32,030 nt of DNA, from IMG/VR virus record IMGVR_UViG_3300043775_001972, positions 1-32,030 of that record. One strand, written 5' to 3'. The notes beneath the pieces were generated by a model. The model saw only the letters and a list, made by a program, of their open reading frames with translations. It did no database searches and was not told where the DNA came from. This document shows positions 2,830 through 27,342 of the stretch, piece by piece. Origin of the DNA: a virus. Position 1 is the stretch's first letter. Each line of letters starts with the position of its first letter. The position numbers and the translations under genes are program-made.

Positions 2830-2861
2830 ATGTCGAATTCACTTAAAAATAAAATATCAAA

Positions 2862-2869
2862 TATTTATC
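2862..2869 (-). promoter_or_regulatory. Late promoter motif GATAAATA
   Basis: On the minus strand GATAAATA lies 32 bases upstream of the ATG at 2829. It matches the NATAAATA motif found before other transcription units of the window and resembles the T4 late -10 element TATAAATA. It lies in the 61-base gap between the fibre gene stop at 2891 and the next start. Confidence 0.6.
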
Positions 2870-2890
2870 ATGGTCTAGATAATCCAAATC

Positions 2891-3631
2891 CTAAGCCGCA
2901 TAACCAATAACTGTAAAATCAATTTCGCAATTTACTGGTAAAGAAGTATCTACACCAATAGTAAATTCATTAATTGTTTTATTACTTATAAAAAAATGAT
3001 GACCTAATGGTGCATTAGTTGGAATTAAACCATTTGGTGTTGTTGTCGATGGAGATAATATTACCGAATAATTATCATCTTTCATAACAATAGGTAATGT
3101 AACTTTGTATGCACCAGTTGATAACTTACTTTGTGGTATATTACCATTAATGGTTGCATAATTACAAAAACTTAATATATTATATTGATATTTTGAATTA
3201 TCTGATTTTAATTTAACTACACAGTTCGCATCTACATACGATTTCGTAGCCGGGTCATTTTCTGCTACTATATCATTAGTAATAAACAATTCATTATTTA
3301 ATAGGCCGCCACTTAATTTTAAAACTCCGGTTGGTACCGTTTGTTCTTTAGTTCCGACATTAACCCAATCACCCTGACCTAATTGTCTAGAGATATTTAC
3401 TTTTAATTGTTTATTTGAAGTATCATACCAAAATTGACCTTCGGTTGGTCTTAATGGCGGAACTTCATTAGCCCAATTTTCTAATATGCGTAAGACGTCA
3501 GTCCAAACTATTTCACCGTAATTTTCTACGTATCTTCCAACTAAATTGATTGATGTTAAATTATTATATTCATAATCTTTTACGTAAATTGGTGCTTTTG
3601 ATCTGTTAGCAAATTCAATTTTTAATGTCAT
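2891..3631 (-). CDS. Tail-fibre-like protein, family member 5
   Basis: 246 residues from the ATG at 3631. A longer frame to 3655 needs a TTG start and would overlap the previous gene further, so the ATG forming an ATGA overlap with the preceding stop is chosen. Residues 1-95 are the shared anchor domain (NYGEIVWTDVLRILENW, GQFWYD). A short linker has ATKSYVDAN, the usual fibre repeat, and the C-terminal 100 residues form a compact beta-rich tip with YKVTLPIVMKDDNYSV and a final FTVIGYAA. The same tip type ends members 3 and 4. Similar tips end many phage fibres and bind receptors or cap the trimer. The 4-base overlap implies translational coupling. Function as a short fibre is inferred. Confidence 0.75.
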   Translation of the reverse strand: MTLKIEFANRSKAPIYVKDYEYNNLTSINLVGRYVENYGEIVWTDVLRILENWANEVPPLRPTEGQFWYDTSNKQLKVNISRQLGQGDWVNVGTKEQTVPTGVLKLSGGLLNNELFITNDIVAENDPATKSYVDANCVVKLKSDNSKYQYNILSFCNYATINGNIPQSKLSTGAYKVTLPIVMKDDNYSVILSPSTTTPNGLIPTNAPLGHHFFISNKTINEFTIGVDTSLPVNCEIDFTVIGYAA

Positions 3632-4275
3632 TTTGCGAATCCCATTACTATGCAAGATATAGTACCAGTAGTCGAATTACTAGCTACTGTAAAACCAGTC
3701 GTTGTTTTACTATGAGTATTTGTATGAATACCACCTTCGCCGTGTAAAGTAACCAATACTGAATAATTAGTATCTGCCATAACTTTAGGTAATGTAACGA
3801 CTCGATTATTCGGATAAATCATTAAGTTTATAATCACATAATTATTATCGAATAAAACATAATCATTAGTTTCTTCTTTAAACGTGAATTTTTTTAATTC
3901 AATATATTCTCTAGTTACGACCGAATTATCAGTTGTCGGTATTACGGTTAACTCTAATGGACCAGTCATTTGCGAGTTATTAATAGTCGAATAACTAGAC
4001 ATATCCGTAGCTGGGCCGTTAATTGCATCCCAATTAGTTCCATTATAAACTTTAACTAATTTATTATAATTATCATACCATATTTGGCCAGTTATTGGTC
4101 TAGGTGGTGCATGCGGACTACTAAAATTTTCTAAAATATGAACGAAATTACCCCAAAATATTTGACCATAATCGGTATAACCTTGACCGATCATGGTAAT
4201 CGAAGTTGCATCATTTAATGAATTGGCGTAGACTATTAAATTATCGCCATTTGCATGAGTTACTGTATAATTCAT
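3628..4275 (-). CDS. Tail-fibre-like protein, family member 4
   Basis: 215 residues from the ATG at 4275, which overlaps the previous stop as ATGA and has GGATAT upstream; a start further upstream at 4299 would lie inside the preceding gene. The anchor domain covers residues 1-90 (DYGQIFWGNFVHILENF, GQIWYD, then a KVYNGTNW segment). VVTREYIEL matches the fibre linker repeat. The C-terminal tip has VVTLPKVMADTNYSV and ends in IVMGFAK, parallel to the tips of members 3 and 5. Together members 3-5 look like tandem duplicates of one short-fibre gene that have diverged. Receptor unknown. Confidence 0.75.
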   Translation of the reverse strand: MNYTVTHANGDNLIVYANSLNDATSITMIGQGYTDYGQIFWGNFVHILENFSSPHAPPRPITGQIWYDNYNKLVKVYNGTNWDAINGPATDMSSYSTINNSQMTGPLELTVIPTTDNSVVTREYIELKKFTFKEETNDYVLFDNNYVIINLMIYPNNRVVTLPKVMADTNYSVLVTLHGEGGIHTNTHSKTTTGFTVASNSTTGTISCIVMGFAK

Positions 4276-4967
4276 AATGTATATCCTACTAATAACCAAT
4301 TATTTCCATTTGGGGTGAAGGTATCGGGCGCTTTATTAGTAATTGAATAATGCATAGTTTTATCAGTATTGGTACAGACTACTGCATAATCATTATCTTT
4401 CATAGTAAATGGTAACATTACTTTATAACCTGAACTAGTATTAACTCCATTCATAACAACGAACTTATTTGGATATAGTGTATAAGAGTAAGTTATATCG
4501 GAATCACTAAATGTAACGTTTTTAATACCACATGATTTATAATTATCTGCAAATTGTTTCGTTGCCGCATGATTACTATTTTTAGTTTCGCCGGAATAAA
4601 CAGTATCACCCGATTCATCATCAGCTAATTTTAAATTAGTTACTGTATTTGATGTATAGGTAGAAATATAATTTGTGGTATCTATAATATTATCATTCGA
4701 TAAATCAATCCATTCATTTGGTGCTTGGTAAATTAAAACGGAACTATCAGATGATCGATACCACATCTGTCCTATCAATGCATTACTAGGTGCTGTTTTG
4801 GAACTAAAATGTTCCATTATGCGTAAAATATTAGTCCAATATTCGTCGCCATACTCAGTAGTTTCGTATCCAATTAATTGCAGAGGGGTTGATGTATCGA
4901 TAGTATTACTACTTACAGTAATACTATCTGCTTTACTTGGATCTGAAAAATTAATTGTATAATTCAT
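4272..4967 (-). CDS. Tail-fibre-like protein, family member 3
   Basis: 231 residues. The anchor domain is at residues 1-92 (EYGDEYWTNILRIMEHF, GQMWYR). ATKQFADN is the linker repeat. The C-terminal tip has YKVMLPFTMKDNDYAV and ends in LLVGYTL. The start ATG shares one base with the TAA of the preceding gene (TAATG), and the stop overlaps the next start, so members 2-5 are tightly coupled. This is the shortest fibre form: anchor, linker and tip without the long repeat shaft found in members 1, 2 and 6. A role as a short tail fibre or side spike is inferred. Confidence 0.75.
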   Translation of the reverse strand: MNYTINFSDPSKADSITVSSNTIDTSTPLQLIGYETTEYGDEYWTNILRIMEHFSSKTAPSNALIGQMWYRSSDSSVLIYQAPNEWIDLSNDNIIDTTNYISTYTSNTVTNLKLADDESGDTVYSGETKNSNHAATKQFADNYKSCGIKNVTFSDSDITYSYTLYPNKFVVMNGVNTSSGYKVMLPFTMKDNDYAVVCTNTDKTMHYSITNKAPDTFTPNGNNWLLVGYTL

Positions 4968-6634
4968 TATTTCCAGCGCCCAATCGCGGTAAAATTACAA
5001 GAAACCATATTGCGAACATAATCCCACGCTAATGGGCGATAACTCCATCCACCGATATGGAAACTAGTTGTTGTTTTAGCGTGGGATTGATAAACTATTG
5101 GGAATACGTAGAATGATGGATTCATTGTTTTGCCGTTACCATTACCGTTAGTTGCATCGTGAGCATGTTTTGATACTGCCGCTCTTTGTGCTGAGGACCA
5201 AACATTACTAAGATCTTTAGATCCGGAGGTTGTTCTCGAATTATACCAAGCACCATTCCAATTCGGGTAACCTAAATATTTCGTATTTCCGCCCCAACAA
5301 CCACCACGGAAACGCCAAAATGCCGATTTATATAAAACTCCAGCAACTGAAAAATCTTGATTATTATCTGTTAATTGAACCGCGAAATCGTTATTGATAA
5401 ATGGGGGACATCCTGATATATTAGCCCAAGAAACAGGCTCACAAGTCATAATTTCAGTAATTTTATCGTCATAACTACCATAATCAAAATTTCGAACGGT
5501 TCCGTAAACCATTAACGTTCCGTCTTCCATTTTCGTATAAGAAACACTACTAAGTCCAGTTCCTGAAACCGTTGGTGGTGCGATAGCTCCAGCTAAACGC
5601 TCTTCTAGATATTCATGAGTAATAGCTTCATTTGCGACTAAAGTTTTACCTTTCTGATCTCTCAGTTGCAAAACCGCATCGGTATTCATTTTATCGCCCG
5701 ATTTTTTAATAAATGGAGCGGTATCACCTTTAGCTAATTCGATTAATGCATCTAGTGTTTTTTGAGTCGATGATAATTTATCTAATGGATTTGAATTTGC
5801 AGATGATATAGCTGCAACGACGTATGATTTCGAGACTGCTTCATTATCCGAAACTGATTTAAGATCCGATTGGTCTCTTAAAAACAATTCATTACCTTTT
5901 TTCATTGTTCTTTTTGACGGATCTTTATTATCATTAAAGATAAAAGGTAACTCCGTCATATTTTTCAACGCCGCTAATATTGCAGATTGAGTTTGTGATA
6001 AATCAACAAGTTTTAATTGATTATCAATTTCAGTTTTTACTTTAAGATCGACGTATTTTTTTGGAGTGGCATATAAACCAAGATTTGGATCAGTATTGGT
6101 TGTTGATATAGAACCATCTTGATTATACCAAGTTGAATCATCTAATAATATAAGATTACCGGTCATAGTGAATGGCTGTGAATTACCAGCCGAATCGTTA
6201 AACCTACCCGATTTATGCAAATAATCTTTTAATGTATTAGTAAAAACTGCATTAGTAACATTAGCAGCAGCATCGTTTGGATCAACTGCTTGTATATTAC
6301 CATCAAATCCAATAACTGGTGTTATAGCAGTCCATTTATAACCATTAGCCGAACCATCTGGTTTTGTTTTTTTAACGTATAATGATAATTGTTTATTTCT
6401 CGGGTTATACCACAACTGGCCTTCAGTTGCATGCGATGGATCTTGATAAGAACAAAAATTTTCTAATAATTTAACAAAGTTTTCAGTTAAACCCAAACCA
6501 TAATCTTTAGCACCATATCCATATAGAGTAAGAGATGTATTTTCGTTATTAAACTCACCGTAGCGTATAGTAAACGGCGATTTACCTGTATTTGTGTCAC
6601 TATAAGTAACGGTATATAAATGATCTGTTGCCAT
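4967..6634 (-). CDS. Tail-fibre-like protein, family member 2 (long shaft)
   Basis: 555 residues. The anchor domain is at residues 1-110 (DYGLGLTENFVKLLENF, GQLWYN). The shaft has repeated fibre segments: FTMTGNLIL with PKKYVDLKV, then AVSKSYVVAAI, then ITHEYLEERL, each preceded by a hydrophobic beta turn. The C-terminal 200 residues form a distinct tip rich in tryptophan, glycine and tyrosine (FWRFRGGCWGG, YPNWNGAWYN, GGWSYRPLAW) and end in FTAIGRWK. This tip differs from those of members 3-5, suggesting another receptor. The start at 6634 leaves a 13-base gap to the previous gene. Function as a fibre is inferred from the repeat pattern. Confidence 0.75.
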   Translation of the reverse strand: MATDHLYTVTYSDTNTGKSPFTIRYGEFNNENTSLTLYGYGAKDYGLGLTENFVKLLENFCSYQDPSHATEGQLWYNPRNKQLSLYVKKTKPDGSANGYKWTAITPVIGFDGNIQAVDPNDAAANVTNAVFTNTLKDYLHKSGRFNDSAGNSQPFTMTGNLILLDDSTWYNQDGSISTTNTDPNLGLYATPKKYVDLKVKTEIDNQLKLVDLSQTQSAILAALKNMTELPFIFNDNKDPSKRTMKKGNELFLRDQSDLKSVSDNEAVSKSYVVAAISSANSNPLDKLSSTQKTLDALIELAKGDTAPFIKKSGDKMNTDAVLQLRDQKGKTLVANEAITHEYLEERLAGAIAPPTVSGTGLSSVSYTKMEDGTLMVYGTVRNFDYGSYDDKITEIMTCEPVSWANISGCPPFINNDFAVQLTDNNQDFSVAGVLYKSAFWRFRGGCWGGNTKYLGYPNWNGAWYNSRTTSGSKDLSNVWSSAQRAAVSKHAHDATNGNGNGKTMNPSFYVFPIVYQSHAKTTTSFHIGGWSYRPLAWDYVRNMVSCNFTAIGRWK

Positions 6635-6647
6635 TCGTTAATATCCT

Positions 6648-8132
6648 TTATGCTTTAATTCCGGTGATTGTGTAAGTAACTGGGTATTGAATAATTGTTT
6701 CTGTCGTAACCGCGTCGACTATTTTAACATACGTTTTATAAACGAATCGAAGTGATAATGAATTTTTTGTCATATTAGTTGGTTGAACTACACCATCCAC
6801 TTGCCACTGATCCCCTACGCCGTGATTGGTAACTTTATACCCACTACCCCAATCGCCTTGTAATGGGTCATAAGTTTGTTTTGCATACTTGTTAATTTCG
6901 GGGGAGGTATTAGTAATTACATCGGATTTAATAATATAATTCGGGTGTAGATCGAATGGTAATGATATATTCCATTTTCTAAAATATCGTTTCATACCCA
7001 ATGCAGGAAGACCGGATTTTGCTCCCCATGAATTTTCTATAAATGTGGTAGAATCAGCTTCGGTTAATTCTCCGTAGATAGTAACCATTCCATTTGGATA
7101 TTCTATATACCACTGACTAACATTTGGTGCTTTCGTAGCAGCTGTAGTTTTTGAAGCAATTGAATCGTCTACGTATTTGCGAGATGCTGCTTCTAATTCA
7201 TTATCTTTACTACTTAACGGTAAACTATATGTCGGTAAAATTAATTGGTCGATCATTGTTCGATCAACTACGGCAGAGCTTCGTTTCTTAATAAATGGAT
7301 TATTAGCTCCAGTTAATTTTGCTAAAGCTGCAGCTAAATCAGCTTCAGATAAACCCGTATTATTCGGCGTTGCAGCGGCCGGTTTTTTATCGACATAATT
7401 TTTTAATTCACTAACTTGATAATCAACATAAGCTCTAGATGATGCATTTAATCGATTAGCTCTACTAGTCGGCGTTAATAAATTACCACTACTATTAAAT
7501 TCATCAACCAATATCAGAACATTACTCATAGTACGCTGATCATCAGCACTACCGGATGTTTTATATAAGAATGGGAGGTCAGTTAATAACAATAATTTAT
7601 CTTTTAAATTATCTAATGTTATTATCGATGATTCTAATTTTGAAATTTTGCGATCGACGTATTTTCTAGAGGTTGCATGCGTTAATTGAGTCTGCGTCGT
7701 AATTAACGGTAAATCATTCTTATCGTAAGTTTCTAATTCTAAGATTAATGGGGCGACCATCGGAATAGTTCCATTATCTTTAATAAACCCTTTTATTAAA
7801 TCCGGTGGGATTGTTATAGGTTTATTATCGTACGCTAATGCATCCCAAAAATAAGCATTATCTGAATTGCGAGTATAAATGCTTAATTGTTTAGTGCCGG
7901 CATTATACCATAATTGACCTTCAGTTGGATAAATTGGATCATCAGGAGAACAGAAGTTTTCCATAATTTTGATCATATTAGTCCATAAGTCAGATCCGTA
8001 ATTAGGCGAACCTCTACCATGTAACCGCAATGATGTTGATGTCGTATCAACCGAATTTGGTGCTAATGGAATTGTTGCTTTTCTATCTAATGCGTTATTC
8101 GAAAAGTTTACGTATAATGTAGAACTGGTCAT
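6648..8132 (-). CDS. Tail-fibre-like protein, family member 1 (long shaft)
   Basis: 494 residues. The anchor domain is at residues 1-108 (NYGSDLWTNMIKIMENF, GQLWYN). The shaft has three copies of a linker repeat about 90-100 residues apart: ATSRKYVDRKI, ASSRAYVDYQV and AASRKYVDDSI, each following a stretch such as DRTMIDQLILP. The tip begins with WYIEYPNGMVTIYG and contains NISLPFDLHPNYII and a final TYTITGIKA. The first gene of the fibre series, it starts nine bases after the stop of the NlpC/P60-like gene, in the same transcription unit as the terminase genes; I see no promoter between them. Attachment role is inferred. Confidence 0.75.
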   Translation of the reverse strand: MTSSTLYVNFSNNALDRKATIPLAPNSVDTTSTSLRLHGRGSPNYGSDLWTNMIKIMENFCSPDDPIYPTEGQLWYNAGTKQLSIYTRNSDNAYFWDALAYDNKPITIPPDLIKGFIKDNGTIPMVAPLILELETYDKNDLPLITTQTQLTHATSRKYVDRKISKLESSIITLDNLKDKLLLLTDLPFLYKTSGSADDQRTMSNVLILVDEFNSSGNLLTPTSRANRLNASSRAYVDYQVSELKNYVDKKPAAATPNNTGLSEADLAAALAKLTGANNPFIKKRSSAVVDRTMIDQLILPTYSLPLSSKDNELEAASRKYVDDSIASKTTAATKAPNVSQWYIEYPNGMVTIYGELTEADSTTFIENSWGAKSGLPALGMKRYFRKWNISLPFDLHPNYIIKSDVITNTSPEINKYAKQTYDPLQGDWGSGYKVTNHGVGDQWQVDGVVQPTNMTKNSLSLRFVYKTYVKIVDAVTTETIIQYPVTYTITGIKA

Positions 8133-12309: not shown

Positions 12310-13857
12310 TTAAACTAAGTATGATTGGAAGTTTGGTGTTATTCGCTGAGCCCCAGCACTAGTATTTTGATCATAACCAGTAATTGAATTTGGAGTTTTT
12401 AATGGTTCTTTATTTAATGAATTAATTGCACTAGCTACATTAAGTTTAGGAGTTTTTGTATCTTGACTTATTTGATTTAATTGTAATGAATTAGCAAATT
12501 TAGGATTTTCTAAACCTAAATTAATTTGTTCAGGTAATTTACTCGGTATAGGATTAATAATGGAATCACCATTTTTAGCTTTAGATAAAGTAGCCGGATC
12601 ATCATTAGTTTTAGATGATGGATCTCCCGCATCATTCAATAAGTTAGTTAAATCATCAGTTAATTCAGCACCTTTCGATGTTAGAACTTCGGTCCGTGGA
12701 TTTGGTGCTAATTCTGAAACTGATATTACATTAGTTGGTACTTCTGGTGCAATTCCCGTATTTAAGAAATAATTATCATAAACAAATTCTAATACGATAT
12801 TGCTACCATTAGTACCATCAGCCATATCAAAATCACCTAAATTAATTTCTTGAATTTTAGGATTATTGAAAACGTGGATATCCATAGTTCTATTAGCATT
12901 ATATAGATGATAAACTTTAATACTTTCTATAATATTAACATTATTTTGTTGAGTTACTAATGAATACGATGCTGTTGACTTTGAAAAATCTAAACCATTA
13001 GTTTCAAATAATTTAGAACTCTCATGATTAAATATTGGGCTTACTCTTCGCAAGTAAGAAACCAAAAAGTTTAATGATTCATTTCTAATATCATCATGTA
13101 TATCTAAAGATACTGGAGAGTATGTAATATTTTTAGGTATATGCGATTTAAAATTATAAAAATTAACTTCTTCGTGGTTAATTGTTATTTTTGGTTTATC
13201 GAATTTTTTAATTAAAAAAGTAAACGAATCTTCTAATGATGGTTGGTATTCTTGATAAAAAGTAAAATGAACTAAGTAAGTATATTTCGCTTTAGGATAA
13301 AAATTAACTATATCGAATGCATAATAATCATCACCAGTAAGTGTACTGATATTATTATGTTCTTCATATGGACTTCTCGTTAAACTAGGAATACCATCTG
13401 CATTAGCGATAGTCCCGGTAGCTCTTTCATTTAAAATAAGTTGCGAGATTGAACTATCGAATAAACCGGGAGTTAAATATTCCCATCTATCCAATAATCC
13501 AGCCTGCATATCAGTTAAACCGTTAATATGGGACGCTAATAACCCGCTTTGCGACGATAAGTTGCGCCCCATAATTCCGTTACTACTATAACTATTATAA
13601 TTACCATAATTATTAGAATTAAGGTAACCTGAATTGATCGCACCGATAATATGAATCGCCGAATTTAATCCTGCTGTTATCAAAGTATTAGCAACTGGGT
13701 CTTTAACCCCTAATAAAGGACGTCTAACACCAAGAGCGGCTAATAAATTTTGACCATCTCGGGGTATACTACGATGTATAACTTTACCAATCGCAGCATT
13801 AGTTACACCAACGATAGCCCCTTGAATAAAAGAATTAAATACGTTATATGCGCTCAT
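12310..13857 (-). CDS. Tail-tube-related baseplate or tail protein (possibly gp54/gp48 type)
   Basis: 515 residues. Residues 1-70 have two alanine/glycine-rich apolar helices (AIVGVTNAAIGKVI, LITAGLNSAIHIIGAI), as found at the start of the T4 tube-initiator proteins gp48/gp54. The centre (about 170-390) has tube-fold features: KPKITINHEEVNFYN, then a 'YSPVSLDIHDD' strand with an acidic turn, a helix-like SLNFLVSYLRR segment and a final strand pair around VFNNPKIQEINLGDFD and IVLEFVYDNYF. The last 120 residues are low-complexity, asparagine/serine/proline-rich. The location directly after tail tube and the shared fold suggest a protein that starts or caps the tube, but the exact T4 counterpart is uncertain. 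Confidence 0.5.
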   Translation of the reverse strand: MSAYNVFNSFIQGAIVGVTNAAIGKVIHRSIPRDGQNLLAALGVRRPLLGVKDPVANTLITAGLNSAIHIIGAINSGYLNSNNYGNYNSYSSNGIMGRNLSSQSGLLASHINGLTDMQAGLLDRWEYLTPGLFDSSISQLILNERATGTIANADGIPSLTRSPYEEHNNISTLTGDDYYAFDIVNFYPKAKYTYLVHFTFYQEYQPSLEDSFTFLIKKFDKPKITINHEEVNFYNFKSHIPKNITYSPVSLDIHDDIRNESLNFLVSYLRRVSPIFNHESSKLFETNGLDFSKSTASYSLVTQQNNVNIIESIKVYHLYNANRTMDIHVFNNPKIQEINLGDFDMADGTNGSNIVLEFVYDNYFLNTGIAPEVPTNVISVSELAPNPRTEVLTSKGAELTDDLTNLLNDAGDPSSKTNDDPATLSKAKNGDSIINPIPSKLPEQINLGLENPKFANSLQLNQISQDTKTPKLNVASAINSLNKEPLKTPNSITGYDQNTSAGAQRITPNFQSYLV

Positions 13858-14630: not shown

Positions 14631-17546
14631 ATGGCATTACTTAACCCTGGGGTACAAGTAACTGTTAGTGATGAGTCCATTTACTTACCATCAACGGCAT
14701 CTACAGTACCACTTTTTTTTATCGCCACCAAATACGGAAAACTTTTACCAAACACTAACTCGGTTGCCTACGGAACAATCGAAGCTGGCGTCCCACGGTT
14801 AATTACTTCATTACGTGAAAGTATTGAGGCATACGGATTTCCGATTTTTAAACGCGATGTTTACGATCAACCTTTGCACGGCGATTGCAGAAATGAATAT
14901 GGGTTGTTCGCATTAAACCAATTTTTAAAATTGGGAAATCGCGCTTACGTTATCCGCGCAGATATCGATTTAGATGATGATACAGAAACAGCATCTAATA
15001 TCTGGGAATCAAAAACAACACCTAATGTAGTTTCTAATGCAAAATTAGCTGCTACCATTTATTTAAATGCAGTTCAAAATTATAGAACAGCAAATAGAAA
15101 TACTCAATTATTGGGTGGATCTATTCAAATTCCAGTTGATTTATTGGATGATGCTGGTAATATTTTACCGATTCCAACAAATGCATCTCAAGCTTTAATT
15201 GATAAGTATAGCGCTTATTATAAAGAATTGAATGAAATGCAAGCTGAAAATGCACAATTAGAAAAAATTATTAATAATGCGATGGTCGAGTTAGCTAAAA
15301 CAACTAGCACCTTTGCAGACAAATATAGAGATAGTGCATATCTAAGATTTAACATTTCTAATATTTTAAGTGGTAATTTTTATAACGTAGAAAATACAAC
15401 TTTAGATGCAAATGGACATTTACAGTATAGTTATTCCCAATATCTACCAGTAGCTACTAATAAAAACACAAACGGATTAATTTTAAGCACAAACCAATAC
15501 ACTGAATCTACTAAAGAAACAAATTTATTAAGTGCCGCCGCTCGTTTAGTTTACGCATCACCTTATGATCCAGTAACTAGCCAACCACCAGTAGCATCAA
15601 CTCACTTTACTGGTATTCTTGGTCGCCTTAGAGAAATGATTCGCCCAACCGATATCGGTTCAATGCGTAATTCATTTAATAATGGTTCAGTGTTTATTCC
15701 TGCTATTGCAGCTAACCCAGCAGCAACGCCACCAATAACAGGTCGTGCACAACAAACATTCTTTACTGACGGTTCTGGTTCAGTTATTAAAGGTAAATTA
15801 CGTCTACATGGAGCTACAATTGCAGGAACAGTTAATTTAACAACTGGTGAATGTAATTTAACTGCTTCTTATGGTAGTTACACTTTAAATATAGGTAATT
15901 CAACCACTACATCATTAACACCAACACAAATTAATGCTATTCGTGCAGATGCAGTATCAGACGCAGCGAAATTATTAGATTTAGATATTATTAATATCAC
16001 TAATAAAGTTCCAGCGAATGTTGATATTGAACTTTACGTTGATACTGTTGGTAGATTAACTGGTTCGATTCCTCAATTTGTAGTTCAAAATTATCCAAAC
16101 AATCACACAGTAAACGAATTACCATCATCTTCGGCTTCGGCTTCAAAATCGATTACTATTAGACCAATCGTGATTAATGGTTTAGTTGATATTGATTTCA
16201 GACCATCAGTTAATATTTTAGCATCAGATGGATTTACTGTTGATGCCGGTGGTTCATTAGTTGACGGAATCTATACGGGTACTGCATCTAATGTTGGTAG
16301 AAGCACTGTTTTAACTATTTTATCTAAAACATCATCTGGTACTGTTGCTTTATTAACTGGAGCTACATTTACTGGCGATGTTAGTATGGTATTAAATAAC
16401 CGTAAAGTAAATGGTATATCTGTTGAACAATTCGGAAATTTAGTAAAAACTGTTTGTTTACAATACGAACGCACTCAAAGTTGGTTCTTCTCAAAAGAAT
16501 TATCAGCTCATAATGGTTCGGATAATTTAATTGGTAGTGATGATGCATCACGTCGATTAGCAGTCGTAAATAAATTTGTTCAAGTTATTCGCGATAACTC
16601 AAGTGTTAATATGGAAGTTGAACCTTTGATGGGTAGTGATATTACATCTGAGGGTTATGAATTTAACTTAGTATTATGTCCTGGTTTCCCAGAATTAGCT
16701 GACGAAATGTTAAGTTTAGTTGAACAAGTAAAATACGAAGCATTAGTATTAGCTGATACTCCAATGAATATGACACCTCGTGATGTTATTAGTTGGGGCC
16801 AATCAATTGATCAATCAACTATTATATCAATATCTAATAATATTAGATCAGATAATCGTGGTTTGATTGCTTATTATTATCCACATGGATATGCATCAAA
16901 CTTAGATGGATATGATGTAATGTGTGCCGCCTCTGGTATCGCGTTAGCTGCATTAACTAATAGTGATAATACAAGTTATGTTTGGATGGCACCAGCTGGT
17001 CCAAATAGAGGCTTAGTATCAGGAACAATTGGTGTAAATGCGGTTGGTTACGTTGAAGGTTTATTAGGTACGCCAGATGCTATGTTTAAACGAGTTCGTT
17101 TAAATGAAGGTTTACGCGATAGTTTATATTCATTATGTAATATTAACCCAATACATGATTCATTGCAACATGGTGTTATGGTATGGGGTCAAAAAACTCG
17201 CGTTAACTTAGGATTTAATTCGGCATTAGATCGTATTAACGTTGCGCGTTTGATAATGTTTATTAGACGTGGTGTAAGAAAAGCATTATATCGCTTCTTA
17301 ATGGAACCAAATGATGATATTACACGTAAAAACGTAACATCATTGGTTAATTCGTATTTACATGACATTAAAATCAAACGTGGTTTGTATGACTTCGCGG
17401 TATTATGCGATACTAGCAATAATACAGCAGACACGATTGATCGTAATGAATTATATGTTCATATTGCATTAAAACCAACAAAAGCGATCGAGTTTATCTA
17501 CGTACCAATTACGTTAGTAAAAACCGGCGATTCAGTAACCGCATAA
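14631..17546 (+). CDS. gp18: Contractile tail sheath protein (T4 gp18 type), enlarged
   Basis: 971 residues against 659 in T4. Residues 1-120 show the sheath N-terminus: LLNPGVQVTVSDES, ATKYGKLLPN, SLRESIEAYGFPI and NQFLKLGNRAYVIRA. The C-terminal third (about 640-971) holds the conserved subtilisin-like-fold core and handshake region: GYEFNLVLCPGFPEL, DTPMN, WMAPAGPNRGLVSG, MVWGQKTRVNLG, LDRINVARLIMFIRRGVRKAL and IKPTKAIEF-like HIALKPTKAIEFIYV. About 500 residues in between are extra relative to a minimal sheath: a likely coiled coil (about 196-236) and serine/threonine-rich beta domains (about 360-600) that should face outward. GGGAG precedes ATG. It is the only rightward gene between 1348 and the window end, and a strong hairpin follows its stop. 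Confidence 0.95.
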   Translation: MALLNPGVQVTVSDESIYLPSTASTVPLFFIATKYGKLLPNTNSVAYGTIEAGVPRLITSLRESIEAYGFPIFKRDVYDQPLHGDCRNEYGLFALNQFLKLGNRAYVIRADIDLDDDTETASNIWESKTTPNVVSNAKLAATIYLNAVQNYRTANRNTQLLGGSIQIPVDLLDDAGNILPIPTNASQALIDKYSAYYKELNEMQAENAQLEKIINNAMVELAKTTSTFADKYRDSAYLRFNISNILSGNFYNVENTTLDANGHLQYSYSQYLPVATNKNTNGLILSTNQYTESTKETNLLSAAARLVYASPYDPVTSQPPVASTHFTGILGRLREMIRPTDIGSMRNSFNNGSVFIPAIAANPAATPPITGRAQQTFFTDGSGSVIKGKLRLHGATIAGTVNLTTGECNLTASYGSYTLNIGNSTTTSLTPTQINAIRADAVSDAAKLLDLDIINITNKVPANVDIELYVDTVGRLTGSIPQFVVQNYPNNHTVNELPSSSASASKSITIRPIVINGLVDIDFRPSVNILASDGFTVDAGGSLVDGIYTGTASNVGRSTVLTILSKTSSGTVALLTGATFTGDVSMVLNNRKVNGISVEQFGNLVKTVCLQYERTQSWFFSKELSAHNGSDNLIGSDDASRRLAVVNKFVQVIRDNSSVNMEVEPLMGSDITSEGYEFNLVLCPGFPELADEMLSLVEQVKYEALVLADTPMNMTPRDVISWGQSIDQSTIISISNNIRSDNRGLIAYYYPHGYASNLDGYDVMCAASGIALAALTNSDNTSYVWMAPAGPNRGLVSGTIGVNAVGYVEGLLGTPDAMFKRVRLNEGLRDSLYSLCNINPIHDSLQHGVMVWGQKTRVNLGFNSALDRINVARLIMFIRRGVRKALYRFLMEPNDDITRKNVTSLVNSYLHDIKIKRGLYDFAVLCDTSNNTADTIDRNELYVHIALKPTKAIEFIYVPITLVKTGDSVTA

Positions 17547-17665: not shown

Positions 17666-18412
17666 TTATGCCAAGGTATCTAAAACCGATAAATCAAACG
17701 CACTTTTATTCGGATCTAACCTATCATCTAAAACAATATTATCAAAATCCATAGTATCATTTACACTAGCTATTCGTAACTTAATAGTTCTAATTCTATC
17801 GTTTTTAATTTCAGCCGGCGCAGACAAATAAACTATAAATTCAAAATTTAAAGTATGAATAATAGTTCTGCGTTCACCCATTACTGGGAAGTTTTCTTCA
17901 TTGCTAATACTAGTTAATTCAACTGTGGTAATTTTGCCGCCATCGAATAATGCATCTGAAGTTTGAATTTGCAAACTGGGATTAAATAAAATTAAAACTT
18001 GCTCTAATATTTGTAATTGGGAATCCAAATTACTACTATATATTTTTAACTCCATTGATAATTTAAATGGAGTAGGCATAACTTGACTAATCGTTTTAGT
18101 ATCTTCGGGAAAAACACCGCCAACTGGAGTATACGACATTGTTTTTATAGTATCGACACCTTTAAATCGATCTGATGCCATAGTAATATCTCTAAGATAA
18201 GCTGATACTACGGGTAATCTTAATGGTTGATTTTGAGTATTACCTGAGGCAATAGCAGCAGAAACTCTATCCATACTACCATACATAACAGGAACATCGA
18301 TAGATTTGATAGTTCCATCTTTAGTTCGACCAGTCTTTACTTCAAACCCCCTAAAGATTTCCATAAATTGGACTATATGTTTTTTAATCTGATTATTATA
18401 ATAATAATTCAT
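17666..18412 (-). CDS. gp15: Tail terminator / sheath stabiliser (T4 gp15 type)
   Basis: 248 residues, near the T4 length (272). The N-terminus follows gp15: YYNNQIKKHIVQFMEIFRG, then KSIDVPVMYGSMDRV, then LPVVSAYLRDITMASDRF, where T4 has YNSSFRRYATLMGDLF, IRVPITYAS and LPRINLHLVDF. The centre has MPTPFKLSMELKIYSSN and QILEQVLILFNPSLQI, equivalent to SPIKMIYELSIFTR and QIVEQILPYFQP. gp15 forms a hexameric ring that caps tube and sheath and receives the head neck. It is the last gene of a leftward operon whose order 13-14-15 matches T4. The gene starts one base after the preceding stop. Confidence 0.9.
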   Translation of the reverse strand: MNYYYNNQIKKHIVQFMEIFRGFEVKTGRTKDGTIKSIDVPVMYGSMDRVSAAIASGNTQNQPLRLPVVSAYLRDITMASDRFKGVDTIKTMSYTPVGGVFPEDTKTISQVMPTPFKLSMELKIYSSNLDSQLQILEQVLILFNPSLQIQTSDALFDGGKITTVELTSISNEENFPVMGERRTIIHTLNFEFIVYLSAPAEIKNDRIRTIKLRIASVNDTMDFDNIVLDDRLDPNKSAFDLSVLDTLA

Positions 18413-18413
18413 T

Positions 18414-19928
18414 TTAACGGCCTATTTTAGTAATATCGACACCATTATCTTCATAATTTGATATCGTTGGTTTTTTTGAATTAGATCTCATACGTTTATC
18501 TTCTTCCATAAAGATCCATCTTTGTTTTGCTGATGAATATCTATATAATCTAGGTGGAATCGGATCTTCTAAAGTCGAATAAGTTAATCGATGATAATCT
18601 TTATTCTTCGGATTTTTAGGATAATCATCACCTTCAGTATAAGGCAACCCATTTGGTGGCATAGCATCTTCTTGAAAATATTCGTATGGATTAGATGAAC
18701 TATAATTGGCTCCGAATCTAGCACCTTTGCGAATAGTCTCAGCATCGATTTGTTTAGCATCATTAAAGCTACCACCAACTTCAGGAACTAATGTATTAGC
18801 TTCCGCTTTAATTTTTTTAGATGATTTTAATGCAGTAGTATTAAATGACTCACCGATACTATCAAAGAAGTCATTATTTAAATCACCCATTAAGTCCATA
18901 GTTTCTTGACTTGCGATCATTGGTTGAGCTGTAATAGAATATAAGGTTGGTTGCCACCCAGGAGTAAAACCACCACTATCCCAAGTTACATCAGTAACCT
19001 CTAAATATTTTTTAACTGGAGTTAAATTTGTATCATATTGAACTTCGCATAAAACATCAATAATATCACCAATAACAATAGGTCGTTTTAAACGCTGAAC
19101 GACCATATTAAAACCCATTTTAAAATTATATTGGTTATTTAAATTTAAACCCATCGCACTAAATTCTGTCATTACATCAACTTGATTATAAAATGCTTTG
19201 ATAACTATAGGATCAATTGAATAACTTCTATCTCTATTTTCTAAGAAAGCCATATCATCTTGGATATTGCTTATATGAGTTTTCGTATATTCGGAGAATG
19301 ATAATTTTTTGATAATCCATAAATCATCTTCAGTTCCCACATATTGGATAGGAACTATACGCCAAAATCTAGCAGGATAACTTTGTTTAATATCTAACCA
19401 ATGAGCATCAGCATCATTTGGTATAGTTAAAAGAGCAATACCTTTCCAATTAATACCATTTTCTGAATTTTCAACTCGAGCTTTAATTATACGATTTTTA
19501 GGTAATTCGCCTTGCTGTATATAAACTGAAGTAACATGATATTTTACTTCAGTATGAATCGCATACTTATTAATATCTGTATCTTTAATTTTTATCGGCC
19601 CAAAATCATAACCAATATAAGTATTTGGATCTCGCTTACCGCATTTTTTAATAGAACGCCATTCACAAGGATCATCTTGAAAAACATTACTAGCCGGAAA
19701 TTCAGGGTATTCACCGTTAGCAATTACAGTTCCATCTAACGGTAATAAATCTTTTTGTTCATGTATACCTAATAATTTATAAATGAGGACATTAGTACCA
19801 CCGATCATAAGACCTTCGGTTACATATTCATTCATTAACTTATCGGATAATGGTTCATTAAATAATTGAAATGAACCATTCTGCTGAATCATTGGCGGGA
19901 TGATTCTATTCGGATTATAAGTAGCCAT
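18414..19928 (-). CDS. gp14: Neck protein (T4 gp14 type) with discoidin-like insertion
   Basis: 504 residues, about twice T4 gp14 (256). Residues 1-70 (including LMNEYVTEGLMIGGTNVLIYKL) and 238-350 (EFSAMGLNLNN, RPIVIGDIIDV, YLEVTDVTWD) fit the gp14 layout, where a GD-[LI]-I segment precedes an LxEI/V-V strand. Between them, residues 76-215 look like an F5/8 type C (discoidin) galactose-binding-like domain: FPASNVFQDDPCEWRS, TYIGYDFG, VTSVYIQQG, ARVENSENGINWKGI and ARFWRIVPI. The last 130 residues are polar, ending with PPRLYRYSSAKQRW and a basic tail. gp14 with gp13 closes the filled head; the inserted domain may bind saccharides. Order gp13-gp14-gp15 supports the call. Confidence 0.7.
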   Translation of the reverse strand: MATYNPNRIIPPMIQQNGSFQLFNEPLSDKLMNEYVTEGLMIGGTNVLIYKLLGIHEQKDLLPLDGTVIANGEYPEFPASNVFQDDPCEWRSIKKCGKRDPNTYIGYDFGPIKIKDTDINKYAIHTEVKYHVTSVYIQQGELPKNRIIKARVENSENGINWKGIALLTIPNDADAHWLDIKQSYPARFWRIVPIQYVGTEDDLWIIKKLSFSEYTKTHISNIQDDMAFLENRDRSYSIDPIVIKAFYNQVDVMTEFSAMGLNLNNQYNFKMGFNMVVQRLKRPIVIGDIIDVLCEVQYDTNLTPVKKYLEVTDVTWDSGGFTPGWQPTLYSITAQPMIASQETMDLMGDLNNDFFDSIGESFNTTALKSSKKIKAEANTLVPEVGGSFNDAKQIDAETIRKGARFGANYSSSNPYEYFQEDAMPPNGLPYTEGDDYPKNPKNKDYHRLTYSTLEDPIPPRLYRYSSAKQRWIFMEEDKRMRSNSKKPTISNYEDNGVDITKIGR

Positions 19929-19931
19929 ATA

Positions 19932-22724
19932 TTACCCCAATACCATAGTACTTTCCATACCAAATTTTTCTGGTTCACTAGCGAGGTAAGTATTGATTTC
20001 CATTCTGCATTTATCAAACATCTCATCCGCTCTAGCTTGTAAATCACTAGAATTTAAACTAACTGATCCGCCCGCCCCAGGAACTGAACCATATTTACCT
20101 CTGATATTAGCTAACATCACACAAGCTTCACCTAAAGCCCATTGTAATATCCATTTACTAGAAATACGATCCATAATTAATTCTTGCTCCGTTCTTTCGA
20201 CCGAACAATCACACATTACACGCTCACTGAGGCCTATATTTTGAAATATATCTAATTTGCGAGTTCTTTCATTAAATCGATGAACTATTCTAGTAGCAAA
20301 TAATATATCCATTAATTCCGTATATTCACTAATAATATGATAAGAAACTAAATCCATCCCCATAGATGGATTATATAACCATTGCATTAATTGTTGTGCG
20401 TAAATGCCATTTCCTTGAGCTGAACTAACATAAGCACTATTTCTACGATAAACTGCTTGAATACTTACAATTCTATTTAATCCAATATTTTTATCAGTTA
20501 ATAGATAAGATTGTTGATTGGGAACTAAATCTAAAAAGAATATCGAACGATCGTACGCACTACTAGATAATTTTCTAAACATGCCCAATGCTAAATCAAC
20601 ACATAATTCCAATTGAGCTTTGTCTAATTCGACTTGAATTGCCGGATATCCCAATAACATTAAAATGCGTTCTATTAAATTTCTACGTTCATCTAATGAA
20701 CCATCAGTACCAACCCCTAATTGTTTATAGGTTGGTTCAGATTGAATACTATCCGTCCCGATAACGAACGGTAAATATTTACCGCGAGGTGATGTATAAT
20801 AGAATAAGTTATAGTCGTTATTATGTAGTTCTGGCATAACAATTCTAGATTTACTACCTAGTGTATTGCTAGTTATAGTTATATTGCCGTTAATAAATTC
20901 ACAGAGTGCTCTAGGTTGTGTTTCAACCCAAATTCGATTAAATTTAAATAATTTATTATTTGAGGTATTAAACCATAAATCGTTTGTTTTTGGTTTAAGC
21001 GAAGAAGTACTATACATCAAAGTTTGCCAGTTAATACCGTTCCAGGTATATAATGTATTACTCGATGTATTGTACCATAATTGACCGGTCTGGACGATAG
21101 ACGGATCAGTTAAAAGGGAACATCCTTGTACAATAGTCCATGATATACCATCAAACTGACGATACAATTTATTTATCGTATCATACCAAAAATCATTTAT
21201 TGCTAATTTCGGTTCAGTATTTTGTTGAAAGTAATCAACATCAACCCATTGAGAACCGTCCCATTTATGTAGCGTATTATCAAACCAAAAATCATTAGTT
21301 TTGATCGGAGATAATGTAGGGTCGGTTGCATTAGTAATATAAGGAATGTTCACCCATAATAAATTTAAAATATCCCAAGCATATAAATCAGTAGTATCAA
21401 ACCAATACCACTCATCCGGATTAGTTACATCATATGATACATTAATAATATCAATTCCTAATGCAATCCAAGATAAACTCATAACATTATATGTATAAAC
21501 GGTATTAGTTACTTTATCATACCAATTAAGATCAGGAACTGGTGTCGGTCTAGTCGCCGACATATCAATATCAGTTAATACCCATTGTTTATTAATTAAT
21601 TGATAAACATTAGAACCATTATACCAATAATAACCATCTGAAAAAGTTAATGGATCTACATCACTTGTAAAAACAGTAATTGGAGACCAATTATTTTTAC
21701 ATCCGGTATTATATTTTGAAAAGGTTTTATTATTAAACCAAATTTCATTGCATTTAAATTGTTTAGTTAAAGCTGGATCATCAAATGAATAATAAGTTTT
21801 ATGAGCTTTCCAAACTTTATTATTTAACGTATATGTTTTAGTAGGTGCTAACCAATGATCAGAACAAGATAATTCATTAATTGGTTTTATATATTTGAAA
21901 GAATCTTGTATTTCCCAAGCCTCATCCCATTTATATAATTCATCGGAAAGCCAATAATCACCGACGTTTAAAATATTAGCAGATTGAGGTCCAAAAAAAC
22001 ATTCTTGTTCAATTTCATTATAACCATCAAATTTAAACAATTTATTATTAGTTATTCTAAACGCATTCGTATTTTTCTGAGTATCGCCAAGATAAACATT
22101 ATCGATTTGGATTATGTTTAAGTTAATTTGATCTACTAACTCTTGGTAATTAGTTGCTTGAATATTAAATGTATAATCTTTATCATCAATAGTAATGAAT
22201 AAATCATTATCGATATCGATAGTATCAGTAATTAAAGCATTTAATTCAATGGTATGACGACCTTTAGTATCTGCAGATTTTTTATTTAACTGCATTGGAA
22301 TTGAATAGCTAAAAATACCGTCATGATAATACGCAATATTATCAATAGCAAAACCAGCAATATAATAATTCGTATTAGGTAATAAATCAGTTAATTGGAT
22401 ACTAGATGTCGTTTTATCATTATAAAATGCACCGATAACTAAAGTATCGCCGATACCATCACCCATAAATTTATTTACGTCGAGTGTAGTATCAAATTGA
22501 TAATACGTTCCATTAACTGGTTTAACTTCAATTGGTTTAGTATCTAATAATAATAAGATACCATTATAAAAATCAGGTGGTAAGTATGGATTATCAATAT
22601 TCGCAGGTATCCCCCAAATTACATTAGCAGTAGTATCGGAGGTTCTTTCGAATGAAATAGAAATTCTATTGCCGTCATCATTAACTGATGCTGGGGTGTC
22701 ATTATACGGGGAATACGCGCTCAT
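19932..22724 (-). CDS. gp13: Neck protein (T4 gp13 type) fused behind an Fn3-like domain and ~10 W-[YF] repeats
   Basis: 930 residues, about three times T4 gp13 (309). Residues 20-135 resemble a fibronectin III domain (SSIQLTDLLPNTNYYIAGFAI). Residues 255-600 contain ten copies of a 33-40 residue unit of the form [DG]-x-W-[YFL]-[DN]...LY-x-[WF]-[DN]-G-x-x-W, clearest in NDFWFDNTLHKWDGSQWV, NDFWYDTINKLYRQFDG and GQLWYNTSSNTLYTWNG. From about 675 the gp13-type core begins: DERRNLIERILMLLGYPAIQVELDK and LELCVDLALGMFRKL match [28 protein letters not shown] of T4. The C-terminus GGSVSLNSSDLQARADE fits the end of gp13. gp13 binds the portal. The fused repeats would project from the neck, like whiskers or collar (inference). 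Confidence 0.75.
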   Translation of the reverse strand: MSAYSPYNDTPASVNDDGNRISISFERTSDTTANVIWGIPANIDNPYLPPDFYNGILLLLDTKPIEVKPVNGTYYQFDTTLDVNKFMGDGIGDTLVIGAFYNDKTTSSIQLTDLLPNTNYYIAGFAIDNIAYYHDGIFSYSIPMQLNKKSADTKGRHTIELNALITDTIDIDNDLFITIDDKDYTFNIQATNYQELVDQINLNIIQIDNVYLGDTQKNTNAFRITNNKLFKFDGYNEIEQECFFGPQSANILNVGDYWLSDELYKWDEAWEIQDSFKYIKPINELSCSDHWLAPTKTYTLNNKVWKAHKTYYSFDDPALTKQFKCNEIWFNNKTFSKYNTGCKNNWSPITVFTSDVDPLTFSDGYYWYNGSNVYQLINKQWVLTDIDMSATRPTPVPDLNWYDKVTNTVYTYNVMSLSWIALGIDIINVSYDVTNPDEWYWFDTTDLYAWDILNLLWVNIPYITNATDPTLSPIKTNDFWFDNTLHKWDGSQWVDVDYFQQNTEPKLAINDFWYDTINKLYRQFDGISWTIVQGCSLLTDPSIVQTGQLWYNTSSNTLYTWNGINWQTLMYSTSSLKPKTNDLWFNTSNNKLFKFNRIWVETQPRALCEFINGNITITSNTLGSKSRIVMPELHNNDYNLFYYTSPRGKYLPFVIGTDSIQSEPTYKQLGVGTDGSLDERRNLIERILMLLGYPAIQVELDKAQLELCVDLALGMFRKLSSSAYDRSIFFLDLVPNQQSYLLTDKNIGLNRIVSIQAVYRRNSAYVSSAQGNGIYAQQLMQWLYNPSMGMDLVSYHIISEYTELMDILFATRIVHRFNERTRKLDIFQNIGLSERVMCDCSVERTEQELIMDRISSKWILQWALGEACVMLANIRGKYGSVPGAGGSVSLNSSDLQARADEMFDKCRMEINTYLASEPEKFGMESTMVLG
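20919..22046 (-). repeat. Coding region of W-[YF] repeats in the gp13-like protein
   Basis: Encodes residues 227-602, an initial NKLFKFDGYN partial copy plus ten repeats starting near residues 257, 288, 327, 364, 398, 437, 477, 510, 547 and 581. Every copy keeps a W-[YFL] pair near the start and, about 15-20 residues later, a tryptophan after a D/N-x turn. Spacing is 33-40 residues. Sequence between the aromatic positions varies strongly, so the copies are old or under diversification. Confidence 0.8.
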
Positions 22725-25011: not shown

Positions 25012-27342
25012 TTATCCGGCATTACCATATCTATTACCGGTAACAGCCCAGGATGCGTAACTACCATTTACTATATATGACCCAGGAGCCCCACCCGCAC
25101 CACCGGTAGCATAATATCCCTGAGAACCCTGAGTTCCATAACCACCCCAGCCCCCACCAGAACCACCGGCAGCACCACCAGAACCTTGACCACCAGCACC
25201 CCCACTATAATTATTTGAAGTTGTGCCACCTCGAGGAATACCAGCTCCAGAACCACCAGAACCACCACCCCCTCCGCCGCCACCACCAACTAAATTACCG
25301 TAATTGTAAATAGTAGTCGTATAGCCAGGTTGAATTATTAAAGCATTCCCGCCTCTACCACCAGCTCCACCATCACCAGGCTCAGGTGCATTTAATCCAG
25401 CCCCACCAACACCACCACCACCCCCAGCTCCACCAATAGTACTATAGTTATATAAAGTAACATTTTTATTGCATGCAATATATAATGCCGGACCACCATC
25501 ATAACCACTTCTTCTCCACCAACCAGAATCATAATAATATGCATAATCAGCGTAAATACCGCGGATCTCACTATTTACATTAATCGTAATAGTCGAACTG
25601 GCATGTAATCCAGTTAACTGAATCATTAATGTATACGTGGAATAATTTGAATTTGTGTTATAGGTTGATGAAGTATTATAATACTGTGATGTACAAGTAC
25701 CCGTTATATTAATGGTGACTTCTGCTGGTTTAGCTTGATTTGCTAATGACCAACCTTGATTTGCAGCCCAAGTACTATTTATTACTAATGGAACCGACGT
25801 CCCAGTAATATTTAATGCGACAGCCGCTTTTGGAATAGTAACACTTACTGAATTAGAATAAACTGAACCGTAAGCATTAGTTGCTCTTACATAAAAGGTA
25901 TATGAACTATCCGGCTCTAATATCGTTGTTCCGTATTGATATAATATAGTAGATCCGGATGTGGTTACGCCAGAAACTTGACCGCCAGTACTCCAAACCG
26001 TATATGTATAACCAGAATTTGTATCCCAATTTAAAACAAATGATTGGGTAGTTGAACTATTAATTGATGTTGCATAAGCTATTGGCGGAACAGGCGGAGC
26101 ACCGACCGGTTTGATACTTAAACTAGTATTACTAACAAGACTATTACCAATCGCATTAGTCGCAAGCATAGTAAACGTATATGATGTATTATTGGTTAAT
26201 CCGGTTACTGTAATTGGTGAGGTCGTACCATTAGCTATTTGACCACCGGAACTAGTTACCCGATAATTAGAAATAATACTACCGCCATTTATCGGGATTC
26301 TAAAGAATACGTTAATCTGAGAATCGCCCGCAGTCACAGACGTAATAACCGGTGTACTAGGTATAGTTGCTGGAACAACAAAGCTACTAACATTACTTTT
26401 ATCACTTATACCAATAGAATTAGCAGCAGTCATAGTAAAAGTATAGGTCACCCCATTTATTAATCCAGTAACTATAATAGGTGATGATAACCCACTTGCA
26501 GTTTTTCCACTAGGTGATGAAGTAATTGTGTATGTGCAAGCAGATCCACCTAAATCGGCTGACGGATTGAAGTAAATCGTAGCTTGAGTATTACCAAAAA
26601 CCGCAGATGTTATAGTCGGACTTGATGGCTTACCCGGTAAAGTTGGAATTACACTATTACTTGGTAAACTAGGCGCACTAGAACCTTGGGTATTGATAGC
26701 AATAACTCTAAATGTATATGATTTTCCAGGAACTAAACCGTATATTGGTATTGAAGTGGTAGTACCAGTATTAACTAATCCATCTGGTGACGATATTACC
26801 CGATAGCTACTAATAGCAGAACTACCAATACTAGAAGGAGTAGTAAATGTTATTAGTGCATAACCACCACCAACACTCGCTGATACATTAGTTGGTTTAC
26901 TCGGAATCGTAGTTCCTAATGTATTAGTTGGTGTAATTGGATATGGAGTCGATTTTAAAGTACTACCGAAAGAATTAGTAGCAGCAACACTTATATAATA
27001 GATTTGATCGTTAGTTAATCCGTATATAGTAATTGGAGATGTAGCAGCAGTCGACGTTATATTACCCGGATTCGCAGTAGCGATATAACCAATTACTGCA
27101 TCTCCACCATTATCCTGAGGTGCAGTAAATGCAATAGTAGCCACCTCATTTCCCGCCGTTACTGAACTTACGGGCGGATCCAATGGTTCTGATATACCTT
27201 TACCTTTAGGCCAAGCATTTAACTGTTTTTGTCGAGCTTGCTGAACTAAATTCCATATACCACTAGCTGAGCCAGTATATGTAGTCCCAGATGTCGTTAT
27301 TTTAGTAGCGGATATTATCCCACCGAAGTATCGATTACTCAT
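25012..27342 (-). CDS. Multi-Fn3 tail fibre/adhesin with polyglycine-rich C-terminal domain
   Basis: 776 residues. Residues 1-48 resemble fibre N-termini in which a GIWNLVQQARQ segment is followed by NAWP. Five fibronectin III domains follow (about 55-138, 147-235, 237-325, 328-412, 415-504), each with the SYTFxVxAxNxxG strand, for example TSYTFTMLATNAIGN. Residues 510-635 are a beta-rich region with tyrosines and WW. Residues 637-776 are glycine-rich, with runs such as VGGGGGGGGGSGG and GGAGGAPG, separated by aromatic residues, like the polyglycine helix bundle of T-even gp38-type adhesins. It is probably a receptor-binding virion protein. AGG precedes ATG; only a degenerate TATAAAATA promoter is seen upstream. 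A terminator follows. Confidence 0.75.
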   Translation of the reverse strand: MSNRYFGGIISATKITTSGTTYTGSASGIWNLVQQARQKQLNAWPKGKGISEPLDPPVSSVTAGNEVATIAFTAPQDNGGDAVIGYIATANPGNITSTAATSPITIYGLTNDQIYYISVAATNSFGSTLKSTPYPITPTNTLGTTIPSKPTNVSASVGGGYALITFTTPSSIGSSAISSYRVISSPDGLVNTGTTTSIPIYGLVPGKSYTFRVIAINTQGSSAPSLPSNSVIPTLPGKPSSPTITSAVFGNTQATIYFNPSADLGGSACTYTITSSPSGKTASGLSSPIIVTGLINGVTYTFTMTAANSIGISDKSNVSSFVVPATIPSTPVITSVTAGDSQINVFFRIPINGGSIISNYRVTSSGGQIANGTTSPITVTGLTNNTSYTFTMLATNAIGNSLVSNTSLSIKPVGAPPVPPIAYATSINSSTTQSFVLNWDTNSGYTYTVWSTGGQVSGVTTSGSTILYQYGTTILEPDSSYTFYVRATNAYGSVYSNSVSVTIPKAAVALNITGTSVPLVINSTWAANQGWSLANQAKPAEVTINITGTCTSQYYNTSSTYNTNSNYSTYTLMIQLTGLHASSTITINVNSEIRGIYADYAYYYDSGWWRRSGYDGGPALYIACNKNVTLYNYSTIGGAGGGGGVGGAGLNAPEPGDGGAGGRGGNALIIQPGYTTTIYNYGNLVGGGGGGGGGSGGSGAGIPRGGTTSNNYSGGAGGQGSGGAAGGSGGGWGGYGTQGSQGYYATGGAGGAPGSYIVNGSYASWAVTGNRYGNAG

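Follow-up and report, generated by a model that had tools for sequence, protein, structure and literature searches.

An adaptor core behind a long N-terminal arm

The stretch of DNA analysed here, referred to as the window, is a virus record of 32,030 bases (IMG/VR IMGVR_UViG_3300043775_001972, positions 1 to 32,030). A gene on its minus strand (19932-22724, ATG start, phrog_211) encodes a 930-aa protein that is confirmed as a head-tail adaptor of the gp13/Ad2 type bearing a long N-terminal arm. From its N-terminus, with all coordinates on the minus strand, the protein comprises an Fn3-fold domain (residues 12-145; 22290-22691), a small alpha/beta domain (residues 146-214; 22083-22289) for which AlphaFold predicts strands within 154-190 and a helix at 193-208, an arm of 11 W/Y beta-modules (residues 215-606; 20907-22082), a linker (residues 607-675; 20700-20906) and the adaptor core (residues 676-930; 19935-20699). 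Directly downstream on the same strand lies a neck partner gene of 504 aa in the gp14 position (18414-19928), which matches phrog_11591 over residues 212-366 and has homologues at the same place in relatives, followed by a gene for a gp15-like tail sheath stabiliser (17666-18412; Pfam T4-gp15_tss, E 4e-39). The gene order in the window is gp13, gp14 position and gp15, with neighbours in both T4-type neck positions.

The phrog_211 profile (head-tail adaptor Ad2) aligned to residues 1-920 over profile positions 1-966 of 976 (E 1.3e-103). Against 13 records, the best match of the same profile, over the full length, was ORF268 of the jumbo phage XacN1, and T4 gp13 was matched too. PHROGs thus appears already to place XacN1 ORF268 together with T4 gp13, leaving the homology, though not the architecture, implicit in the database. 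Residues 681-775 matched T4 gp13 residues 10-104 by BLASTP (E 4e-6), Foldseek matched the core to the structures 9lu7 and 9mkb (E 5.6e-9 to 3.4e-8), and VIA superposed model residues 674-913 on T4 gp13 in 9lu7 (Z 12.0, root-mean-square deviation (rmsd) 4.5, 114 residues aligned). The whole-protein AlphaFold model, built from 30 aligned sequences, had a mean predicted local distance difference test (pLDDT) of 77.7 and a predicted template modelling score (pTM) of 0.45; searched as a whole among predicted viral proteins, it gave matches that include neck proteins and Orpheovirus collagen-like proteins. No Pfam family was found in the 930-aa protein at E ≤ 1, and NCBIfam gave no match for four proteins at E ≤ 0.1. 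An earlier note made from the sequence alone had proposed a gp13-type core behind about 670 residues. The core is borne out, and the extension, long as stated, measures about 675 residues since the core starts at about residue 676.

That two genes were joined by an assembly error, an idea to which two further contigs of this phage might lend colour by ending inside the gene, is refuted. One of these contigs (IMG record 3300042343) covers residues 1-733 at 100% identity and so crosses the join between arm and core; the other (IMG record 3300002835) covers residues 842-930. The full architecture is also found in dozens of contigs and in the isolated jumbo phages XacN1 (ORF268, 977 aa) and RAS14 (WAX21693.1, 976 aa), where it is annotated 'hypothetical protein' and is 32% and 31% identical, respectively, to the window protein over the full length; a match in CM1 spans 97% of the query. 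Viral contigs were further scanned with the core alone, so that relatives were not picked by their arm, which gave at least 599 stretches, at least 364 of them encoding relatives. The best 80 were taken; removal of 17 core open reading frames (ORFs) truncated at the 5' end, and of 11 that were duplicates, left 52. Using a module cut-off of 6 bits, Fn3, modules and core lie in one ORF in 50 of the 52, with exactly 11 modules in 38 and 7-11 modules in 51. The parts are split in a single relative, L181, where Fn3 and eleven modules occupy the ORF preceding the core with one in-frame stop (TAA, 4411-4413) between; this may be either a natural split or a sequence error. Stop recoding was considered and rejected for L181, as the codon in question is TAA and translation of TAG as Q did not bring the two parts together. 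In the other relatives of the 52 the parts do not occur as separate genes, except that in L207 Fn3 lies in a different frame just upstream. The fusion, for which the earlier note had asked whether relatives share it or keep the parts apart, is genuine and conserved in relatives.

Modules and tip of the arm

Ten clear repeats span residues 250-604, their first Trp at residues 258, 291, 329, 367, 401, 441, 480, 513, 550 and 584 (spacing 33-40) and a second Trp 12-18 residues after the first. The region 227-610 holds 25 of the 29 Trp of the protein. Ten W-[YFL] motifs thus stand in a chain at 33-40 spacing, the longest such chain in 5000 shuffles of the region being five; in a looser test, 21 pairs of W lie 33-40 residues apart against a shuffle mean of 11.4 (p 0.006). 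The spacing and the regular aromatic positions given in the earlier note therefore stand, but its W-[YF] pattern needs amending: the first Trp is followed by Y or F in eight of the ten repeats and by L in two, and relatives revealed an eleventh, N-terminal module that is degenerate in the window protein, at about 215-241. Module bounds, placed by hand from a hidden Markov model (HMM) trained on the window, are 215-241 (degenerate), 250-275, 283-310, 321-351, 359-386, 393-424, 433-462, 472-498, 505-534, 542-571 and 576-604.

An HMM refined on the family gives the module consensus TTPTVGTYWYNTTTNKLYEWNGTTWVEVTV, a unit of about 30 residues. It detected 276 modules above 8 bits in 32 proteins and none in 320 shuffled copies, a control that is partly circular as the model was trained on the same 32 proteins. 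Among 12 armless gp13s used as a further control, two had one match each (T4, 9.8 bits; SCTP-2, 8.0 bits), and a lone weak match therefore means little. The T4 match, at residues 157-174, was considered as a relic module and rejected; in an alignment of gp13 cores it is an ordinary core hairpin, and it was read as a chance likeness. The arm is acidic and rich in aromatic residues (18% W/Y/F, isoelectric point 4.7). Forty-four of its 389 positions are at least 80% conserved, every one of them W, P, G, L or D. In directed tests among ten proteins, modules were best matched at the same position in 541 of 990 cases against 90 expected; judged by this sequence matching, modules are orthologous by position.

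Since VIA matches of the whole model were mostly to Fn3, the arm was folded and searched separately. Modelled alone (mean pLDDT 87.6, pTM 0.58) it shows short strands clustered in threes or fours, eleven clusters in all. The model suggests a string of separate three-stranded beads, each predicted with confidence and their relative placing uncertain. A beta-solenoid, which the earlier note had offered as one possible form, is not supported by this strand pattern, and the closest solenoid-like fold matches are weak. Nor does the arm model show a coiled coil, helices of at least four residues being absent from it. Compared with 964 chains, the arm alone matched none at Z 5. Weak matches were obtained to the choline-binding module of LytB with Foldseek (E 1.2e-5 but probability 0.57) and to the dextransucrase DSR-E with VIA (Z at most 2.6); at E ≤ 0.5, 20 Pfam families were matched by one or other of the 32 members, and choline- and glucan-binding repeats are not among them. 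Profile searching against PDB sequences gave weak matches to RBM10 (E 0.03) and RBM5 (E 0.13), the chains matched being presumably OCRE domains, and a literature search for WW-like phage repeats gave no lead.

The Fn3-like domain that the earlier note had read from the sequence is recovered as a fold: model residues 12-143 superpose on Fn3 beta-sandwiches, for example 2gee (Z 9.9, rmsd 2.2, 92 residues aligned), with Z 9-10 to many Fn3 chains. By sequence, five of the 32 members match Pfam fn3 at an E of 0.5 or less, the lowest being 0.004, and the window protein does not match it at E ≤ 1. Over the 276 pairs of 24 long members, mean identity was 47.9% for Fn3, 46.6% for the core, 32.6% for the linker and 31.1% for the arm; the small second domain had the lowest mean, 27.5%. 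Every one of the 276 pairs had a lower identity in the arm than in the core, although repeat misalignment may have led to arm identities being understated. Between XacN1 and RAS14 the values are 80.4% for Fn3, 67.5% for the core and 52.7% for the arm. Conservation of the distal Fn3 domain on a par with that of the core would point to a tip with a fixed partner in the virion.

Arm length in relatives and modules in fibre-like genes

Further scans, started from the N-terminal part, from the whole protein or from the short form, yielded 45 distinct cores, 44 of them intact at the 5' end; of two metagenome-assembled contigs from a genome-contig scan, L076 alone holds a core and is counted among the 45. 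In the 44 intact proteins, the number of detected modules was one (1 protein), two (13), three (4), eight (3), nine (4), ten (9) or eleven (10), some one- and three-module proteins possibly having further units under the cut-off. No protein with four to six modules appeared in the seeded and core-only scans combined, and no arm was found in the other gp13s examined. In a tree of 44 cores, the long (25), two-module (7) and armless (12) proteins each fall on one side of a branch (support 97/99 for armless against the rest, 85/90 for long). Another tree, of 40 cores, took in the five proteins with one or three modules, had 16 long proteins and agreed with the first; support was 99/98 for armless, 100/98 for short of all kinds (12) and 97/95 for long. 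The armless set was chosen from search matches plus T4, and T4, CPt10, Marzo and SCTP-2 form long branches in these trees. If the root lies among armless gp13s, the trees fit a single gain of the arm and one main change of length. In four loci (L103, L110, L114 and L117, on the same contigs as L050-L054), the two-module proteins measure 657-724 aa between stops rather than the usual ~510, with additional glycine- and threonine-rich sequence, seen by eye, inside the Fn3 region.

The module also occurs outside the adaptor. Six tandem fibre- or adhesin-like genes on the minus strand of the window (1348-8132) share an N-terminal domain of ~80-100 residues (phrog_15511) and have variable C-termini. 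Behind this N-domain, one W/Y module scoring above 9 bits with the arm HMM was found in five of the six window genes and in all six of XacN1 ORF232-237, compared with none of 2588 shuffled ORFs. Counted as distinct ORFs with gp13 excluded, N-domain ORFs in long-arm records number 6 in XacN1, 6 in RAS14, 13 in G002 (a fragment of the same phage as the window), 2 in G003, 3 in G006 and 2 in G007. Armless phages have them as well (PA5oct 5; 121Q, RaK2, XaC1 and Atu_ph07 1 each; T4 0), as do the short-arm records G004 (1) and G005 (2), each with one module-only match in addition. A relation between arm length and the number of one-module fibre genes was looked for and was not clean. A 133-kb contig of the same phage carries 13 N-domain ORFs in two clusters.

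From gene order, the product of 18414-19928 is probably gp14; a homologue was found in 47 of 61 loci searched, at most 600 bases downstream of gp13 in 41 and farther away in four, two being not comparable. Its 504 aa compare with 256 aa in T4 gp14; beyond the limited phrog match there is a sub-threshold match to F5/8 type C at residues 126-196. The tail sheath gene (971 aa, 14631-17546, plus strand) lies on the strand opposite to gp13-gp15, as in L002, and on the same strand in relatives such as L017, L021 and L024. On the minus strand, 12310-13857 encodes a second tail-tube-like protein (515 aa, phrog_4542) adjoining a 225-aa tube protein, and 25012-27342 a protein of 776 aa that has Fn3 in five stretches and whose glycine-rich C-terminus weakly matches a GP38 adhesin.

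Role of the arm and comparison with known neck appendages

The protein is best read as the head-tail adaptor of a jumbo myophage of the XacN1 kind. The core probably forms the usual ring under the portal, in twelve copies if like T4, and ahead of it each subunit would place eleven three-stranded W/Y beads, a small domain and, as the tip, an Fn3 domain, giving a virion with about twelve covalently anchored, projecting neck arms. With its length set, the arm may then serve as a strut or tether that reaches with its tip to a fixed partner in the virion, such as a capsid vertex, the sheath or folded-up fibres, and may take the structural job that in T4 falls to fibritin, whose separate fibres are bound by domain III of gp13. 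Since the Fn3 tip equals the core in conservation and the beads keep their number and order while most of their positions drift, we hold a covalent strut or tether with its tip on a fixed partner to be moderately probable, and prefer it to a host-binding whisker.

A host-facing whisker, whose W/Y beads bind glycans for weak multivalent attachment to a cell surface or biofilm and whose Fn3 domain is a passive cap, seems rather unlikely. The acidic, aromatic-rich composition, the distant likeness to choline- and glucan-binding repeats and the lower conservation of the arm than of the core would all suit it; however, the Z of 2.6 lies far below the 7-8 that, by the tool's notes, the top match normally reaches even when a model has no clear counterpart, the conserved Trp look, from the strand pattern, like positions of the bead scaffold, and bead number and order are conserved. 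The distal Fn3 domain, conserved above every other part of the protein, is a further point against a free host-binding whisker. The single modules in the fibre-like genes, together with the 2-13 N-domain ORFs of long-arm records, could instead mean that the beads are a docking rail recruiting one-module fibre-like proteins, by which the neck arms present an array of adhesins. This is unlikely, as N-domain genes occur in armless and short-arm phages too and shared use of a common bead suffices as an explanation. Very unlikely is an extension serving assembly only, guiding the portal and neck and then being removed or disordered in the virion: the stop codon between arm and core in L181 and the linker, modelled with less confidence than most of the arm, would agree with it, but a single frame, kept in 50 of 52 relatives, speaks against it.

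Several observations weigh against the strut or tether reading. The modules of the window protein are more divergent, their best matches in long members often out of register, and the arm identities may be too low through misalignment of repeats. The sister group of short-arm proteins manages with 1-3 detected modules. In the available text of the XacN1 paper no tail fibres were visible by electron microscopy and neck fibres are unmentioned; virion proteomics, with gel and MS data, is reported there, with ORF268 unnamed in the main text. Domain III of T4 gp13 (residues 190-239) is described as binding fibritin to give the twelve neck fibres (PMC12270204). When T4 was aligned with 18 other gp13 cores, 12 of the arm family and six armless (121Q, RaK2, PA5oct, Atu_ph07, XaC1 and CPt10), at least 90% of the 18 had gaps in the columns that hold its residues 187-205 and 219-241; domain III has 37 of its 50 residues in these two stretches, so that the window core lacks most of it. 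Domain III is, however, missing from the six armless gp13s too, and among nine whole records searched, including three armless jumbo phages, Fibritin_C (PF07921) was found only in T4. The arm is therefore no simple swap with fibritin, and the idea that fibritin takes the place of the arm in armless phages, when considered, was uninformative, as the three armless jumbo phages lack Fibritin_C too. By analogy, the arm may nevertheless do the whisker's work, a likeness also drawn in the earlier note.

Neck adaptors are commonly regarded as small ring proteins. A widespread phage clade, jumbo phages included, whose adaptor consists for the most part of an N-terminal arm suggests a collar of covalent design. 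More tentatively than the strut or tether reading itself, we suggest that the collar of XacN1-type jumbo phages could be a covalent strut or cage of about twelve 11-bead arms whose Fn3 domains grip a fixed virion part, a separate evolutionary answer to the T4 whisker proteins that was gained once and comes in discrete length classes (1-3 or 7-11 detected beads). The arm-bearing clade also offers a likely role for the 'hypothetical' genes of XacN1 and RAS14, and in it the role of neck appendages becomes testable by truncating one gene rather than by removing separate fibres. The arm-bearing architecture is apparently undescribed, as the earlier note had supposed: no description was found among the matches listed by full-text literature searches, subscription papers lying mostly outside their coverage. 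In the available text, a study of domain shuffling in neck passage proteins (PMC10684548) and one of the RaK2-like phage CBB, whose tail whiskers have no gene assigned (PMC5259590), contain no adaptor of this kind.

Among known systems, T4 gp13 resembles the window protein in core sequence, fold, core size and position before gp14 and gp15, but has no N-terminal extension, while the window protein lacks T4 residues 112-125 as well as most of domain III. The gp13s of RaK2, 121Q and PA5oct are core homologues likewise without domain III, but are armless and measure 250-268 aa. T4 fibritin (wac) whiskers and the neck fibres of A-1(L) are appendages on the adaptor ring and may work alike (PMC12270204, PMC10966104); they are separate trimeric proteins, whereas the window arm lies within the adaptor chain. 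As far as the available text of the Milano and A-1(L) neck papers goes, collar or neck-fibre proteins are there too separate from the adaptor (A-1(L): PMC10966104). In the cyanophage S-CAM9, a 657-aa 'neck protein' (N161109_080; L069, 3613-5586) is likewise enlarged by tandem repeats, about eight and 'GYxxxPxV'-like as judged by eye, but occupies the gp14 position and carries a different type of repeat, placed inside the chain; its gp13-like neighbour (373 aa) has no W/Y module over 5 bits. XacN1 ORF268 and RAS14 WAX21693.1, divergent in sequence from the window protein, are identical to it in their full architecture.

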